35,082 nt of DNA from a virus, in the IMG/VR virus record IMGVR_UViG_3300038660_000106, positions 1-35,082 of that record, one strand, 5' to 3'. The first letter of the stretch is position 1, and each line of letters opens with the position of its first letter. Position numbers and translations under genes: made by a program. This document shows, piece by piece, positions 1 through 35,082 of this stretch. The notes under the pieces are model-generated. The model searched no databases and was not told the DNA's origin. It saw only the letters and a program-made list of their open reading frames with translations.

Positions 1-783
1 AATAAGGTTCGGGCTATCTTTGACTTTGACCACAAGGACACGGGACCAGCGGCGGCACTTCCTCAGAGGTTTTTCTATGAAGCTGGTAAAGGCATCATGG
101 TTGAACGTGAGCTTACAGGAGCAGGGGCTAAGGCTATTAAAGCTAAGGACTACTCCTATTTCTCCCCGGTCTTCCTGATCAATAAACAGGGCATCCCTAG
201 CGGTCTTCCAGATAAGGGACCATTAGGCGCACTAGTCAACGATCCCGCTTTTAGAGATATTGAACGTATCGCAGCTAAACAAGCTGAAACCACAAAACCA
301 GAAACCATGAATGAACTAGTAAAATGCGGTCTTCTCACTGAGGACGAATCCGCCAAAACAAACGCAGGGGAAATCGCAAGCAAGCGCGTTTCCGCAATGA
401 CGGCCGACAACGATAAGGTCACAGAACTCAATAAGCAGATCGAAGCACTTGAAGCTGAGAAGAAAGCACTAGGGGAAACCGTAGAGGCATCTAACAAGGT
501 CATTCTTGACGCTAAAGAAGCTAACGCTGATTCACTCATCGTAGCAGCAGTGGCAGACGGTCGCATCTCCGCTAAAGACGAAGACAGCAAGACATTCTGG
601 AAAGATTCAATCCTTTCTAACGAGTCAGCAGTCAAAGCTCTTAGCGCACTCCCTAAGAAAAACGAGGGAATCACTAAACCAATCGTTCAAGCTGGTAACG
701 GCTCACAAGCGAAGGAAGACGAACTAACCGGGCTTGACGCTGTAGAAGCATCACTCGCCAAAGAAATCGAAAACTCTAACTAA
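1..783 (+). CDS. Mu I-like prohead protease with scaffold-like C-terminus (5' end outside window)
   Basis: The frame is open from base 1 to the TAA at 781-783, so the gene begins upstream of the window. The in-frame ATG at 97 is internal. Codons 7-12 read FDFDHK and codons 51-58 YSYFSPVF. These match the conserved His and Ser-Pro blocks of Mu gpI-type prohead proteases (Mu-like_Pro family), which mature the capsid from inside the prohead. From about codon 100 the protein becomes Lys/Glu/Ala-rich and helical, with a likely coiled coil around codons 137-165, as expected of a scaffolding segment. The major capsid gene follows after 6 bases, the usual protease-scaffold-capsid order. The family is confident; the catalytic residues are inferred by motif only. 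Confidence 0.82.
   Translation, partial: NKVRAIFDFDHKDTGPAAALPQRFFYEAGKGIMVERELTGAGAKAIKAKDYSYFSPVFLINKQGIPSGLPDKGPLGALVNDPAFRDIERIAAKQAETTKPETMNELVKCGLLTEDESAKTNAGEIASKRVSAMTADNDKVTELNKQIEALEAEKKALGETVEASNKVILDAKEANADSLIVAAVADGRISAKDEDSKTFWKDSILSNESAVKALSALPKKNEGITKPIVQAGNGSQAKEDELTGLDAVEASLAKEIENSN
307..783 (+). CDS. Possible nested in-frame scaffolding protein
   Basis: An ATG at 307 lies in the protease frame exactly where the protease domain ends and the helical scaffold-like part begins. Its context (GAAACCATGAATGAA) resembles the AAACCATG(A) leaders of real genes in this window, such as 790, 3100 and 3343. It would yield 158 residues. Phage Mu (I/Z) and lambda (C/Nu3) both make the scaffold from an internal start in the protease gene. 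The sequence shows the start context and domain boundary; use of the start is inference. Confidence 0.35.
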   Translation: MNELVKCGLLTEDESAKTNAGEIASKRVSAMTADNDKVTELNKQIEALEAEKKALGETVEASNKVILDAKEANADSLIVAAVADGRISAKDEDSKTFWKDSILSNESAVKALSALPKKNEGITKPIVQAGNGSQAKEDELTGLDAVEASLAKEIENSN

Positions 784-789
784 AAAACC

Positions 790-1734
790 ATGAAAAACAC
801 ATTACTAGATCTCACTAAGAGAACAGCAGGTGCAAAAGAAGTAGGTCTCATTGAAGAGAATCTACAATACGCACCAGAAGTAGCGATGGTCCCAGCTAAG
901 ACCATTGCAGGGACATCATACACCACACTTGCACGAGTAGGACTACCAACAGTAGGCTTCACTTCTGTAAACCAAGGTGTCACCGCAAGCAAGTCAACCT
1001 ATAAGAATGCGCTAGTCCAGACATTCCCACTTCGTTCACTCGTTAAGGTTGATAAGGCACTCGTAAACGCAGATTCATCACTCCCATCACTTCAGACAGA
1101 CGAAGCAAGTGGAGTAATGGAAGCCGCTCTACGTCATGTAGGTCGTCAATTCTACTACGGTCAAAACGCAGGTGGTGACTCAGAAGGTTCAATCGGTCTT
1201 CAGGATGTTGTAGGTGCTGAACAGACCTTCGATGCTTCTGGAACTACTGCCGACACTGGATCATCTGTTTACCTTGTTAAATTCGGACGTAAGGACGTTC
1301 AAATGGTATTCGGCAACAACTCCACACTTTCACTTGCCCCATTCCGTGACGAGACTCTTACAGACTCAGACGGCGGTGAATTTGACGGTTCAGTTGCTCA
1401 CCTTACCGCTTGGCAGGGTGTCCAATGCACAAACCCTAATTCAGTGGTTCGTATTGCTAACCTTACAGAAGATTCTGGCAAAGGTCTAACAGACGCGATT
1501 CTTGCGAAAGCTCTAGCACTATTCCCTAGCGGAGTAACTCCAGACGCTATCTTTATGACTCGTAGAACTCGCTCACAGCTTCAAGCTGACAGAGCTACCC
1601 GCACCGCTACACGCGGCAACGGTAAAAACGGTTCAGTAGGTGGTGGTTCAACTTACTCCCCTACTCCAACTGACTTTGAAGGAATCGCTTTGACTCCTAC
1701 AGATTCAATTCTCAACACTGAGCCATTAATATAA
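790..1734 (+). CDS. Major capsid protein
   Basis: A 314-residue protein directly downstream of the protease/scaffold gene, starting MKNTLLDLTKRT. It is rich in Thr, Ala and Ser and mixed alpha/beta, as in HK97-fold capsid proteins. The N-terminal part (about residues 20-120: YAPEVAMVPAKTIAGTSY, then a VDKALV segment) resembles major capsid proteins of a siphophage group that I know by pattern rather than by name. It would form the icosahedral shell and be processed with the scaffold. The position supports the call strongly; the exact family is uncertain. The start follows the A-rich leader typical of this genome (TAAAAAACCATG). Confidence 0.78.
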   Translation: MKNTLLDLTKRTAGAKEVGLIEENLQYAPEVAMVPAKTIAGTSYTTLARVGLPTVGFTSVNQGVTASKSTYKNALVQTFPLRSLVKVDKALVNADSSLPSLQTDEASGVMEAALRHVGRQFYYGQNAGGDSEGSIGLQDVVGAEQTFDASGTTADTGSSVYLVKFGRKDVQMVFGNNSTLSLAPFRDETLTDSDGGEFDGSVAHLTAWQGVQCTNPNSVVRIANLTEDSGKGLTDAILAKALALFPSGVTPDAIFMTRRTRSQLQADRATRTATRGNGKNGSVGGGSTYSPTPTDFEGIALTPTDSILNTEPLI

Positions 1735-13176: not shown

Positions 13177-13914
13177 ATGGAAAATACAAATAAAAATACA
13201 GAAATGCTGCAACTATCAGATAGTAGTCCGATGGCTGTGATAGGCAGGGCTATCGACTCTAACGCCTCGGTTGAATCGCTGGAAAAGCTAATGGATCTAC
13301 ATGAGCGGCATGAGTTAAATTTGGCAAAAAAGGAATTTAACCGCTCGTTAGTAAAGGCACAGTCAGAGATGCCCACGGTTTACAAAGGTCGCAGCAATGC
13401 TGGCACAAGATCGAGATACGCATCGTTTGACGACATAATGAGAGTGATTCGTCCCGTGCTAGATAAACACGGACTAGCTTTGACTTTTTCGCAGTCAGAA
13501 ACTGAATCAAACATCACTATCGTATGCAGTATTCTGCACGTCGAAGGTCACTCGACCGATACGCCGTTTACACTGCCAAAAGATGACGTGATAAAGAGTA
13601 ATGCTGGTAAGTTAGTTACTAACTTAGCGCAAGCCCAAGGTAGTGCTAATAGCTACGCTAAGAGATACTGCTTATGTAATGCTCTTAATATAGTTCTAGG
13701 GGATCAAGATGACGATGCAAACGCTATGGATGCTCCTATAAAAGCAGTCACTAAAGATCAGGCTGAAGAATTAAAAACGCTAATTGATGAGTCTGGCGTG
13801 GAACTTGAGAAGTTCCTGCTACATTACAAATCAGAGAGCCTTGAGGGATTCCCTCTCGTTATGTTCGCGAAAGCTAAATCAACTCTCAAAGCTAGAGCGG
13901 AGGAATCAAAATGA
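13177..13914 (+). CDS. ERF-family single-strand annealing protein
   Basis: 245 residues. The ERF core is evident: SRYASFDDIMRVIRPVLDKHGLAL at about residues 75-100, a short beta part (ITIVCSILHVEGH), then GSANSYAKRYCLCNALNIVLGDQDDDAN at 155-185. ERF proteins anneal complementary single strands in phage recombination and DNA repair. The 3' part is helical and ends KAKSTLKARAEE. It is the first gene of an exonuclease-SSB operon and overlaps the next gene by 4 bases (ATGA). High confidence in family. Confidence 0.92.
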   Translation: MENTNKNTEMLQLSDSSPMAVIGRAIDSNASVESLEKLMDLHERHELNLAKKEFNRSLVKAQSEMPTVYKGRSNAGTRSRYASFDDIMRVIRPVLDKHGLALTFSQSETESNITIVCSILHVEGHSTDTPFTLPKDDVIKSNAGKLVTNLAQAQGSANSYAKRYCLCNALNIVLGDQDDDANAMDAPIKAVTKDQAEELKTLIDESGVELEKFLLHYKSESLEGFPLVMFAKAKSTLKARAEESK

Positions 13915-14669
13915 TCCATGAAGTCGATCAAAACAGCCACGCTTGGCAAGATTTGAGAGCGGGAAAGCTAACGGCATCAGAGGCGGGGGAGTGGCTACTA
14001 GCTGAATCTAAATTAACACTCAATGGAGGGGAAATTAAATCTGCACTAGATGAACTCGGGATAACTTACGTCAAGACAGCAAGGGTAGGTGATCTAGCCA
14101 ACTTACTGCCTTCTGATATCATAGCTAATAACCAAGGCTACCTTAAAAAAGACACGGAAGCTAGAAATTCTGCTATGTGCAAAATGATAGGTAGAGAGCT
14201 ATCCCCAGTCACGAATGACTGGATGGGTAATAGGTTCACGGATTTCGGGCATGAATTTGAAGACATGGCAGCGACGGAGTTTGAGCTTAGGACAGGCTAT
14301 ACTTGCAAAAAAGTAGGTTTCGTAACGCTGGACGGCTTCCAATATTTCGGCGCGTCTCCTGATAGATACATTTACGACTCTGACGGCTCATTTATCGGGC
14401 CTTTAGAGATCAAATGCAAGCCAGAAGCTCACGTCAAGATAGTGATAGGTGACGTGCTACCAGATGAACATAAACTGCAAGTCCATTACCAGATCTTACT
14501 AAGTGGAAGTCAGGTGGGTTACTTTTTCGCTTACTCGCCAGATATGCAGCCTTTCACTATCAAAATCCACGCTGACGAATACACCGATAAGCTAGAAAAA
14601 TCACTAATTAAATTCGACGCGGAATATCAACAATTCAGAAATTCACACCTAAATAAACTAACTAACTAA
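13911..14669 (+). CDS. YqaJ/lambda-Exo-like PDDEXK recombination exonuclease
   Basis: 252 residues. Nuclease signatures: W12-x-x-L-R-x-G-K-x-T-A-S-E near the start, E115/E117 in FGHEFEDMAA, D151 in GASPDRYI, and E166-x-K168 in PLEIKCK, followed by HYQILLSG. This is the PDDEXK arrangement of phage 5'-3' exonucleases that resect duplex ends for the annealing partner. It is encoded directly after the ERF protein with a 4-base overlap, forming a two-component recombination pair. Confidence 0.92.
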   Translation: MIHEVDQNSHAWQDLRAGKLTASEAGEWLLAESKLTLNGGEIKSALDELGITYVKTARVGDLANLLPSDIIANNQGYLKKDTEARNSAMCKMIGRELSPVTNDWMGNRFTDFGHEFEDMAATEFELRTGYTCKKVGFVTLDGFQYFGASPDRYIYDSDGSFIGPLEIKCKPEAHVKIVIGDVLPDEHKLQVHYQILLSGSQVGYFFAYSPDMQPFTIKIHADEYTDKLEKSLIKFDAEYQQFRNSHLNKLTN

Positions 14670-32506: not shown

Positions 32507-35082
32507 ATGAATCACTATCATCAAACCAAGTCAGTTAAATCACAAAAGATTGACGAACCTATTGTTCAAAATAAAGCGCAAGACAGGCTTTTAGAATTAT
32601 TCAATCGTGAAGAGCTACCTGGAACCGTGAGAGAGAATCTTGCAGGAGCATTATCTGGTAACCTAGCGAGACAGCAGCTCATGTTTCAAGCGATGATAGA
32701 TACTACCCCTAGACTTCAGAAGAATCTAGCAGAGGTAGCGGATGCTGTGAAGGGTGCAAAATGGCAGTTCACGGCTAAGAAGATGAGGGGTGAGGAAGAG
32801 CCAAGCAAGGAAGCTATCGAGCGTATGGAGTTCATCGAGGACGCTTTCAAGGACACATCACCAAGCGTTGTTAGGAATGAGAAGAACCACAAGCAAGTTG
32901 TGCGTGATTTAGTCTATGGATACTATATGGGTCATCACGTAACTGAGATTCATTGGCAAAATAGAGATGGGATATATAATCCCCGGGCATACAAGTCAGT
33001 CCCTCCTAGATTCTACGGATACCCGTTCTTTGATGAAGATGATGACAGGCTCATGTTTGATCCAAGCGGTAGAGAGTCACAAGAATACATTGACTTTCCA
33101 GAAGATCGTTTCTTGATAGCGATGAACTCAGGACACACTGGACACATGGCGACATCTGCACCATTACGTGCGCTCACAGGTTATTGGCTGGCTTCTAACT
33201 TTGGATTGAAATGGCTCATGTCATTCTCTCAACTCTATGGAGTGCCTTTCCGCTGGGGAACTTACTCAGATGAATTGGGAAAGAAAGCACTCAGCACAAT
33301 GCTACAGAACATCGGCTCAACTGGCTGGGCATCTGTCCCGAAAGGAACTGATATTGAGTTTAAGGATGCGGCAAAAGGTGTAGGTTCACTACCACAGCAG
33401 GGGCTTATTGATATGGCTAATGAGGCTTTCGATATTTTCATCCTAGGGCAGACTCTCACATCATCACAAGGTGACACAGGCTCACAGGCTCTAGGCAATG
33501 TTCATAACGAGGTAAGGCAAGGTGTATTCCAAAAAGTGGGTGACTACGTGGGTGATATACTCAACACGCAGCTGATACCGTCTATCTCTAAGCTGAACTA
33601 TGGAGACGTTGAAAACCTCCCTACTATCGAGCCAGTATTTGAGAAAAAGGAAGATCCTAAGCTACTAGCTGAGAGAGATGCTATGCTCATCAGCATGGGA
33701 ATGGAAGTTGATAAGGATTGGCTCTATGATCGTCATGGCGTTCCAATTCCTAAAGATGAGAAGAATATATTTAAACCAGCTTCTACTCCGGATGGTGGTC
33801 AGGGAGATCCTGACACGGGGGGCGGCAAGCCTCCTATAGAAACAAAGGAGAAAGAGGGTGAAAAAAAAGATGAGGTAAAGGGGGCGTTCAACCCTAACCA
33901 ATCTAGGGACGAAAACGGGATGTGGACGGATGGGGGTGAGGTTCATGAGAAGATCCAAAGGACGAGGGATTTAATCGCACACGGGAGAACAGAAGAGTCA
34001 ATAATATCTGATTTAAAGTTAGCTTCTGAGGGTGATATTCCCATACCTAAAGACCTCGATGACAAAATAGACGTGCTGGCTTATGGTTATGCAGATGGGG
34101 AAATGATCACCACAGCAACAGAGAATATTGACATATTTTGGACAGAAGACTTGGTTAACCCGCAACACTTATTTGACACACAAGGCATGGATTGGGTAAA
34201 CTCAGTTGACTTCACTGATCCTGTAGAGTTAGGCGTTGATGAGGTCGGCAAACTATACATTGAAGATGGTCATCATAGATGGTTCGCATCTGGAAAACTA
34301 GGAAGAGAAGTGACGGGGCAGATAGTTAAATTCAAAGGGAATCCACTCGTTAAGATAATAAAAGACGGAGTAGCTAACAGAGCGAAACCTGATTATAAAA
34401 TAGAAGGCGCATTCAACCCTAACCAAGACAGGGACGAGAACGGGATGTGGACGGATGGGGGCTTAAATGATACCGAGAAGAAAGCCACGTCAATAATGAG
34501 GGAAAGCTACAGAAAAGCCAAAGCCCTCTATGATATGCCTATAAATGAGCGTATAAAACAAGCTATTGATACAGCTAAATCAGGAGGTTACGCTGGACTA
34601 TCTAAGGTAGATAAATACGCAGTTTCTCCAATGAAAAACGTAAGAGACAGGGATAATCTGCAAGAGGAATTTGCAGAGCGATTTAAGAAGCATTTAGAAA
34701 AACATGAATCAGAGCCATTATACAATGAGGAAGAGTTTTTAAATAAACTCAGGAAATTTCAAACTATACAAAGCGCGTTTAACCCTATGCAACTTCGTGA
34801 TGAGGCTGGAATGTGGACTATGGGCGGCGGTGATGGAGGGGGATCGACTAGCATCCCAACTGATCCGACATTAAAGAAGGATTTAGAATACATGAAAGCA
34901 GTTGAGTCTGGTGACGTGGATGCGCAACAAAGGATGGTTGATGAAGCGGCTAAGAATGCGGGGTATGATTCGCCTAAGGTTTATCATGGAACAGATGCGC
35001 GATTCACTGTTTACGATAAAGATAAAACAGGTTCTAACTTTGGATTAGATAAGCATGGGTTTTTCTTTACTACAGATAAAGA
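32507..35082 (+). CDS. DUF935/Mu gp29-type portal fused to ParB-like, unknown and ART-like domains (3' end outside window)
   Basis: 858 codons with no stop in the window. Residues 1-430 are a DUF935 portal: NLARQQLMFQAMIDTTPRLQ, LVYGYYMGHHVTEIHW, FILGQTLTSSQGDTGSQALG with EVRQGVF. At 459, 634 and 756 a 19-residue motif starts with (G/S)AFNPxQxxRDExGMWT. Between copies 1 and 2 is a ParB/Srx-like domain (IEDGHHRWFASGKLG). Between 2 and 3 is an unknown helical domain. After 3 comes an ADP-ribosyltransferase-like start (PKVYHGTDARFTVYDKDK, then G-F-F-F). Such domains are listed for phage polyvalent proteins. The fusion to a portal is what stands out. Confidence 0.88.
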   Translation, partial: MNHYHQTKSVKSQKIDEPIVQNKAQDRLLELFNREELPGTVRENLAGALSGNLARQQLMFQAMIDTTPRLQKNLAEVADAVKGAKWQFTAKKMRGEEEPSKEAIERMEFIEDAFKDTSPSVVRNEKNHKQVVRDLVYGYYMGHHVTEIHWQNRDGIYNPRAYKSVPPRFYGYPFFDEDDDRLMFDPSGRESQEYIDFPEDRFLIAMNSGHTGHMATSAPLRALTGYWLASNFGLKWLMSFSQLYGVPFRWGTYSDELGKKALSTMLQNIGSTGWASVPKGTDIEFKDAAKGVGSLPQQGLIDMANEAFDIFILGQTLTSSQGDTGSQALGNVHNEVRQGVFQKVGDYVGDILNTQLIPSISKLNYGDVENLPTIEPVFEKKEDPKLLAERDAMLISMGMEVDKDWLYDRHGVPIPKDEKNIFKPASTPDGGQGDPDTGGGKPPIETKEKEGEKKDEVKGAFNPNQSRDENGMWTDGGEVHEKIQRTRDLIAHGRTEESIISDLKLASEGDIPIPKDLDDKIDVLAYGYADGEMITTATENIDIFWTEDLVNPQHLFDTQGMDWVNSVDFTDPVELGVDEVGKLYIEDGHHRWFASGKLGREVTGQIVKFKGNPLVKIIKDGVANRAKPDYKIEGAFNPNQDRDENGMWTDGGLNDTEKKATSIMRESYRKAKALYDMPINERIKQAIDTAKSGGYAGLSKVDKYAVSPMKNVRDRDNLQEEFAERFKKHLEKHESEPLYNEEEFLNKLRKFQTIQSAFNPMQLRDEAGMWTMGGGDGGGSTSIPTDPTLKKDLEYMKAVESGDVDAQQRMVDEAAKNAGYDSPKVYHGTDARFTVYDKDKTGSNFGLDKHGFFFTTDK
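33881..33937 (+). repeat. Linker/processing motif copy 1 (codons 459-477)
   Basis: GAFNPNQSRDENGMWTDGG. About 50 of 57 bases match copy 2, so the repeat is recent at DNA level. It separates the portal from the ParB-like domain. Confidence 0.88.
34406..34462 (+). repeat. Linker/processing motif copy 2 (codons 634-652)
   Basis: GAFNPNQDRDENGMWTDGG. It separates the ParB-like domain from a 100-residue helical domain of unknown type. Confidence 0.88.
34772..34828 (+). repeat. Linker/processing motif copy 3 (codons 756-774)
   Basis: SAFNPMQLRDEAGMWTMGG, diverged in DNA and sequence but keeping F-N-P, R-D-E, G-M-W-T and G-G. It separates the helical domain from the ART-like domain. Confidence 0.85.

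Follow-up and report, generated by a model that had tools for sequence, protein, structure and literature searches.

A repeated motif ahead of effector-like modules in a Mu-type phage portal protein, in other head proteins and in gene transfer agent clusters, and its possible role as a header

The virus contig IMGVR_UViG_3300038660_000106 of IMG/VR was analysed over its entire length of 35,082 bases (the window). It ends inside a gene in which a Mu-type portal protein runs on, in one open reading frame (ORF), into three effector-like modules, each headed by one copy of a 19-residue motif. The locus raises the question of what the motif does ahead of such modules on a protein of the phage head, and it touches on an open question, how phages beyond T4 and P1 select the proteins carried in their heads. 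An initial annotation proposed a protease site or a packaging tag. The reading favoured here, with moderate confidence, is that the motif serves as a modular header, by which effector domains are marked out to be carried in heads of the tailed-phage type. It is favoured because a header recognised by the head accounts jointly for stand-alone tagged proteins, for fusions, for the polarity of the modules and for linkage to gene transfer agents (GTAs).

The motif, its carriers and its cargo

The portal part of the window ORF is a full-length family match (profile positions 3-336 of 336 in PF06074), and the frame, read directly, stays open beyond it through a ParB-like, a helical and an ART-like module, as the initial annotation had described (Table 1). 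The matches to ParB and ART families are weak. The ParB-like module carries DGHHRW; its label is weak because it is recognised only by PHROG ParB families, at E-values of 0.002-0.004, with no Pfam ParB match in the module after copy 1. The helical module after copy 2 has no Pfam match. The ART-PolyVal match (PF18760) spans just 35 residues and lies under the Pfam cut-off, the domain being incomplete because the contig ends at position 35082. MuF was matched neither in the window ORF nor in a neighbouring head-block protein of the sister contig L004 (see below), but it is present in other motif carriers. A search of host genomes with the window portal returned no relative. The motif reads F-N-P-x-Q-x-R-D-E-x-G-M-W-T-x-G-G in the window, with one copy heading each of the three modules; three copies had been claimed and are present, although the gap from Q to R is one residue and not two. 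At the DNA level the motif core occurs three times in the window and a reversed control pattern not at all.

The initial annotation stated that similar motifs mark domain borders in phage head proteins, and in IMG/VR this is true on a large scale. The pattern F[ND]PxQxRDxxGR[W/F] is found there in at least 120 stretches and its codon-order-reversed control in none. The consensus of this first type, from 175 listed copies, is [FY]-[DN]-P-[DNS]-Q-P-R-D-[ED]-x-G-[RK]-[WF]-[TS]-x-G-G-G. A loop variant, QPRVPAGxxxGGQWT, was first met in a GTA cluster and is likewise found in at least 120 stretches of IMG/VR; its flanks equal those of the first type, K-[YF]-x-P-D before and T-x-G-G-G after. Both forms occur within single proteins (L309, L332, L350, L396 and L403) and are thus taken as loop variants of one element. 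In the species genomes of GTDB the first pattern gave 64 stretches in 257 Gb from about ten phyla, some of them probably chance. A motif-profile search of the PDB returned only chain Af of 9rku (residues 82-96) and chain C1 of 8fqc (residues 81-95), with QPRDASGRF/QNRDASGRF at an E-value of about 1, and unrelated enzymes. These two chains, tail-hub proteins of the Agrobacterium phages 7-7-1 and Milano, were considered as relatives and rejected, being without the F-D-P part and lying inside a baseplate hub.

The figures on carriers, cargo, spacing and proteases in IMG/VR rest on the matches listed from these scans of at least 120 stretches. Segments upstream of the motif include portal proteins of seven Pfam families (PF04860, PF06074, PF06381, PF05136, PF21919, PF07230 and PF05133), MuF proteins, the prohead protease S78 and a major head protein (the last by PHROG). 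Every annotated family among the 25 commonest carrier PHROGs is a head or packaging family. The segments after the motif match ADPrib_exo_Tox, ART, ART-PolyVal, Zeta, PI3/4-kinase-like, contact-dependent inhibition (CDI) nuclease, PBECR, TopoIB and 2H families, as well as CdiA RNase A (11 members), barnase-like domains, deaminases, peptidoglycan-acting domains and sometimes MuF. The initial annotation's account of a portal that bears effector-like domains bordered by the repeated motif is supported. At least 68 residues lie beyond the last copy in 114 of the 115 listed closed-end ORFs of the first type, and successive copies are at least 128 residues apart. Glycine makes up a fraction of 0.28 of the ten residues after the motif, compared with 0.09 over the ORFs as a whole.

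The motif also stands alone. It starts within 25 residues of the N-terminus in 31 of 138 listed ORFs, some of them near-identical (for example MAFNPRQPRDRHGRW), and where neighbours of such genes were sampled they encode portal, terminase, head morphogenesis, protease and capsid proteins. Among cultivated phages, the head-block protein gp10 of the M. smegmatis phage Damien (Mycobacterium phage Damien), encoded between the portal and capsid genes, starts with MSFNPRQPRDRFGRW; Predator and Nocardia phage P3.1 have the match where their corresponding gene begins. Two alignments of divergent stand-alone toxin-like families show no more variation in the motif than in the presumed catalytic residues. 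Three successive small ORFs of a metagenome-assembled genome (MAG) of the Bacillota (L152, 373-1743) each start with MAGFDPNQPRDEIGRWT and have different bodies, forming a tandem of tagged modules.

The header would be a short element, probably a beta-hairpin, composed of [FY]-[DNS]-P-x-Q-P-R, a short or long loop and [RKQM]-[WF]-[TS]. A module would consist of the header, a flexible glycine-rich linker and one effector domain, existing either on its own, as a small protein whose N-terminus is the header, or in serial fusions behind a protein that already forms part of the head (portal, MuF protein, protease or capsid protein). During head assembly the header would be recognised, by docking or packaging, and it would keep the effector accessible there up to the point at which effector and DNA leave together. 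A typical portal has 12 subunits, which in the window phage would carry ParB-like, helical and ART-like domains. In some phages the header may, in addition, be cut by a head protease.

Head proteases, the sister contig and module exchange

Cutting of the header by a head maturation protease, which would release the individual effectors from their carriers within the prohead, appears unlikely as the explanation of the motif. It would suit the copy ahead of every domain and the flexible glycine linker behind it, the Mu-I protease placed rightly in the window phage, and the many carriers (HK97-type and Mu-type portals) from protease-bearing lineages. Targeting tags of T4 are removed by cutting. 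DarA of P1 is known to be processed and packaged, according to the passages found of PMC5512222. However, the Mu-I protease (PF10123) is recognised in only 1-2 of the 41 motif-bearing contigs, some of which may be fragments, so that the motif is not confined to contigs encoding it, contrary to what a Mu-I cleavage site predicts. S78 is found in 11 of these contigs and S49 in one, and none of four head-protease families was detected at an E-value of 0.001 in 26, some possibly incomplete. The motif remains constant across phages with unrelated proteases and is also present on one SPP1-type portal. The N-terminal copies leave little or nothing to free; a cut at residue 2-5 of a stand-alone protein releases nothing. 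A pure Mu-I cleavage site is unlikely on the sequence evidence, given the 1-2 contigs with the protease and the many N-terminal copies. The protease half of the initial proposal is therefore weakened, whereas its packaging-tag half gains from the stand-alone N-termini in head-gene blocks, the domain that the motif nearly always has behind it and the GTA clusters.

An independent sister contig, L004, is 93% identical to the window over the portal ORF. It keeps the same frame through copies 1 and 2, which confirms the frame of the window ORF, and its portal protein ends at 800 residues with two motif copies, without copy 3 and the ART-like domain. The gene order in L004 is portal, an 879-residue head-block protein, a 218-residue protein, protease I and major head protein, of which the portal, protease and major head protein are confirmed by Pfam. 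The two genes between portal and protease sit at the positions expected for F and G, and neither matches Pfam. The 879-residue protein bears two further motif copies. Its last module, behind its own copy (10457-11041 of L004), resembles a T7-like protein kinase (phrog_15752, E-value 5.8e-6). The Mu I-type protease had been expected downstream of the portal, where it lies in L004; in the window it stands at the contig's own start, since the contig is broken between the two genes, with cuts inside protease I (position 1) and inside the portal gene (position 35082). L004 spans the missing stretch, that is, the remainder of the portal gene, the genes of 879 and 218 residues and the start of protease I.

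The DNA of the two sister phages is 100% identical before copy 1, about 57-80% identical across 33857-33946 (at lowest 17 of 30 bases, over the motif-1 patch) and 93-100% identical afterwards in the ParB-like module; homology stops for good just before copy 3. Both large differences thus lie at motif borders, and by this comparison the motif is also the place where modules swap. Read by eye, positions 13177-14669 of the window encode a putative ERF-like protein for single-strand annealing and, behind it, a putative YqaJ-like exonuclease, a pair that could drive exchange at the short motif repeats.

The motif might then be a module joint only, a structural cap or linker retained for its DNA homology in domain shuffling and not recognised in the head. 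The sharp drop in identity confined to the motif patch, the recovery behind it and the final end before copy 3 would fit, as would the 50 of 57 bases common to copies 1 and 2 and the putative annealing protein and exonuclease. DNA homology is nevertheless insufficient, because phages and bacteria of differing DNA share the conserved amino-acid motif, which is invariant in stand-alone proteins and exists as two loop variants with identical flanks; we regard a mere joint as quite improbable.

Table 1. Coordinates of the window features and of the tagged loci in Rhizobiales
Feature	Location	Strand	Remarks
Mu gpI-type protease/scaffold protein	1..783	+	PF10123, E 9.6e-18; 5' end cut by contig start; downstream of portal in gene order
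Major head protein	790..1734	+	PF20911 GP7, E 2.9e-24
Portal-effector fusion ORF	32507..35080	+	858 codons read, ATG start, no stop before contig end; 3' end cut
Portal_Mu (DUF935) domain, residues 59-412	32681..33742	+	PF06074, E 4.3e-74; phrog_113 portal protein, E 8e-72
Motif copy 1, residues 459-477, GAFNPNQSRDENGMWTDGG	33881..33937	+	Patch differing between sister phages
ParB-like module, residues 478-633 (DGHHRWFASGKLG)	33938..34405	+	phrog_1033 E 0.0023 and phrog_26754 E 0.0044 (isolated module); weak
Motif copy 2, residues 634-652, GAFNPNQDRDENGMWTDGG	34406..34462	+	50/57 bases same as copy 1
Helical module, residues 653-755	34463..34771	+	PHROG matches to unknown families only; helices from low-confidence model
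Motif copy 3, residues 756-774, SAFNPMQLRDEAGMWTMGG	34772..34828	+	Sister-phage homology stops just upstream
Glycine-rich linker, helical linker (EYMKAVESGDVDAQQRMVDEAAKNAGY) and start of ART-like domain (residues 824-858)	34829..35080	+	ART-PolyVal PF18760, E 5.3e-4
Tagged toxin-like genes or portal fusions in Rhizobiales GTA or GTA-like clusters	L236 6050-9752; L237 5435-6609; L238 5362-6027; L239 4117-6117; L282 12621-16302; L285 15377-17113; L265 2328-3413		L238 is a more divergent cluster

Tagged genes in gene transfer agent clusters

Many of the GTDB matches are Rhizobiales proteins of about 200 residues. They start with a helical part, continue with the motif and end in a toxin-like domain that varies from protein to protein; in many cases a small gene overlaps their 3' end. 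In 4 of the 16 GTA-positive motif genomes a tagged gene shares the strand of GTA_TIM and precedes it by 11-12 kb, with a P of about 6e-7 under random placement, a calculation that ignores insertion hot spots; GTA_TIM is recognised at an E-value of about 1e-129 or lower in G034, G032, G029 and G019. The order in L236 is terminase, portal, S78 protease, a tagged HHIVE gene, a DUF2019 gene, the capsid gene, a second tagged gene and a small partner. In both L236 and L237 the tagged HHIVE toxin-like gene overlaps its DUF2019 partner by 4 bases, and in L236 the pair is located between the S78 protease and capsid genes. L239 and L285 encode fusions of a GTA portal, the motif and cargo. As in RcGTA-like blocks, collinear GTA-type portal, S78, capsid and GTA_TIM genes lie between chromosomal genes in L236, L237, L239 and L285. 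Pfam supports the terminase, portal, S78 and capsid genes of L236 and the portals of L239 and L285; the genes of L237, from Blastochloris sulfoviridis DSM 729, were otherwise read by eye.

DUF2019 genes are also present in GTA clusters without an exact first-type motif (L283 11914-12610, L251 5056-5424, L242 17727-18101 and L282 12241-12621), and in L283 a short HHVVE remnant adjoins the DUF2019 gene. A second repeated N-terminal element, RPDxxRW/F (e.g. MRPDAARWMRPDAARWIRPDVARF), lies ahead of the motif in several tagged proteins of Rhizobiales (L282 12621-16302, L146 1447-2295 and L237 5435-6241).

That the motif is a general pre-toxin motif of polymorphic toxins, akin to the junction motifs of Rhs or CDI systems, with heads as one of several delivery routes, would agree with orphan Rhizobiales toxin-like genes that have immunity-like partners amid housekeeping genes and with cargo families shared with CDI toxins, but is very unlikely in view of annotated carriers that are overwhelmingly head and packaging proteins among the matches listed and of the lack of any type 5, 6 or 7 (T5/T6/T7) secretion domain among the families listed.

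Weight of the header reading and comparison with known systems

Several points weigh against a header recognised by the head. Recognition alone does not account for the copy before every domain in portal fusions, which may reflect cleavage, accessibility or recent module exchange; portal and MuF fusions should need no extra packaging signal and fit better with cleavage or a mere linker. A few proteins of the loop-variant set terminate 6-27 residues past the motif. Since most of the searching was done in virus contigs, the bias of the motif towards viruses is partly built in, although genomes yielded only the 64 stretches in 257 Gb. Most Rhizobiales tagged genes sit amid unrelated chromosomal genes without GTA linkage. 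The motif is present in 6 of 13 GTA clusters from motif genomes (five in one scan and L239 in another; reversed control 0) but, with the loop variant included, in only one of 37 GTA clusters sampled randomly from the order, and in none of these as the first type; the tagged genes of GTA clusters are therefore rare accessory genes. GTA presence is not enriched with the motif (16/20 motif genomes versus 47/61), and GTA_TIM was not found in 4 of the 20 motif genomes, three MAGs and one isolate assembly. The reading draws on sequence and gene context: the build of the modules, their distribution and polarity, the head-gene surroundings, the GTA linkage and the exchange at the header are observed, and from these the hairpin and the recognition, loading, release and injection of cargo are inferred. 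Structure models are of low confidence and too poor for a fold (mean predicted local distance difference test score, pLDDT, 30.6 for the window ORF and 42.6 for a tagged HNH-like toxin family). An isolated R-W bridge recurs in these models, at residues 467/473 and 642/648 of the window ORF and 79/85 of the HNH-like family, and hints at a hairpin too weakly to count. Presence or absence of a GTA was also considered as the cause of orphan tagged toxins and was rejected on the same genome counts.

A head-recognised header is nevertheless retained as the preferred reading. Its widest form is put forward tentatively: one short header would be a general cargo signal of HK97-type heads, common to unrelated tailed phages of many bacterial phyla and to GTAs, phages would inject enzymes with their DNA, and some alphaproteobacteria would arm GTA particles with toxins whose immunity genes they hold. 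A signature of 12-20 residues readable from sequence would allow head-borne effectors to be listed in environmental phages, which are mostly unannotated. If the reading is true, GTAs may carry toxins, which would bear on why hosts retain them.

Among known systems, the capsid targeting sequence of T4 is a short N-terminal signal on Alt and internal proteins, which are loaded into the head and injected. The stand-alone tagged proteins, with an N-terminal tag and head-gene neighbours, may work in a like manner; the header appears to differ from it in sequence and is also internal, repeated and spread across many phage lineages and GTAs. The cargo-loading peptides of encapsulins, in which a short peptide and a flexible linker bring cargo into an HK97-fold shell, offer an analogy only, having another sequence and being mostly C-terminal. 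With RcGTA-like GTAs the motif-tagged loci share their surroundings, a cluster that contains GTA_TIM together with genes for a GTA-type portal, the S78 protease and the capsid. Polyvalent phage proteins combine components of the virion with effectors such as ART, ParB and RNase, and PBECR and 2H are reported among the domains fused to portal and MuF proteins (Iyer et al. 2017, PMC5512222). The window ORF is likewise multi-domain, with unrelated domains in one polypeptide (the portal with ParB-like, helical and ART-like modules); of the published inventory (ART-PolyVal, DdrB-like ParB), ART-PolyVal gives the contig-cut match of 35 residues below the cut-off, and ParB gives weak PHROG matches only. 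The passages found of that paper contain no short repeated header, stand-alone tagged modules or GTA versions, and ascribe release to peptidase domains. In the MuF polymorphic toxins of temperate phages the toxin domains are C-terminal on a head protein adjoining the portal (Jamet et al. 2017, PMC5576092); in the window the carrier is the portal itself, and the words motif, linker and cleave are absent from that paper. Text searches of the literature, covering few subscription journals, returned in the passages retrieved no description of the header or of header-tagged toxin genes in GTA clusters. Portal and MuF proteins with effector domains and head-targeting peptides of T4 are thus already known; what is new is the proposed header in its general occurrence, together with its use by GTAs.
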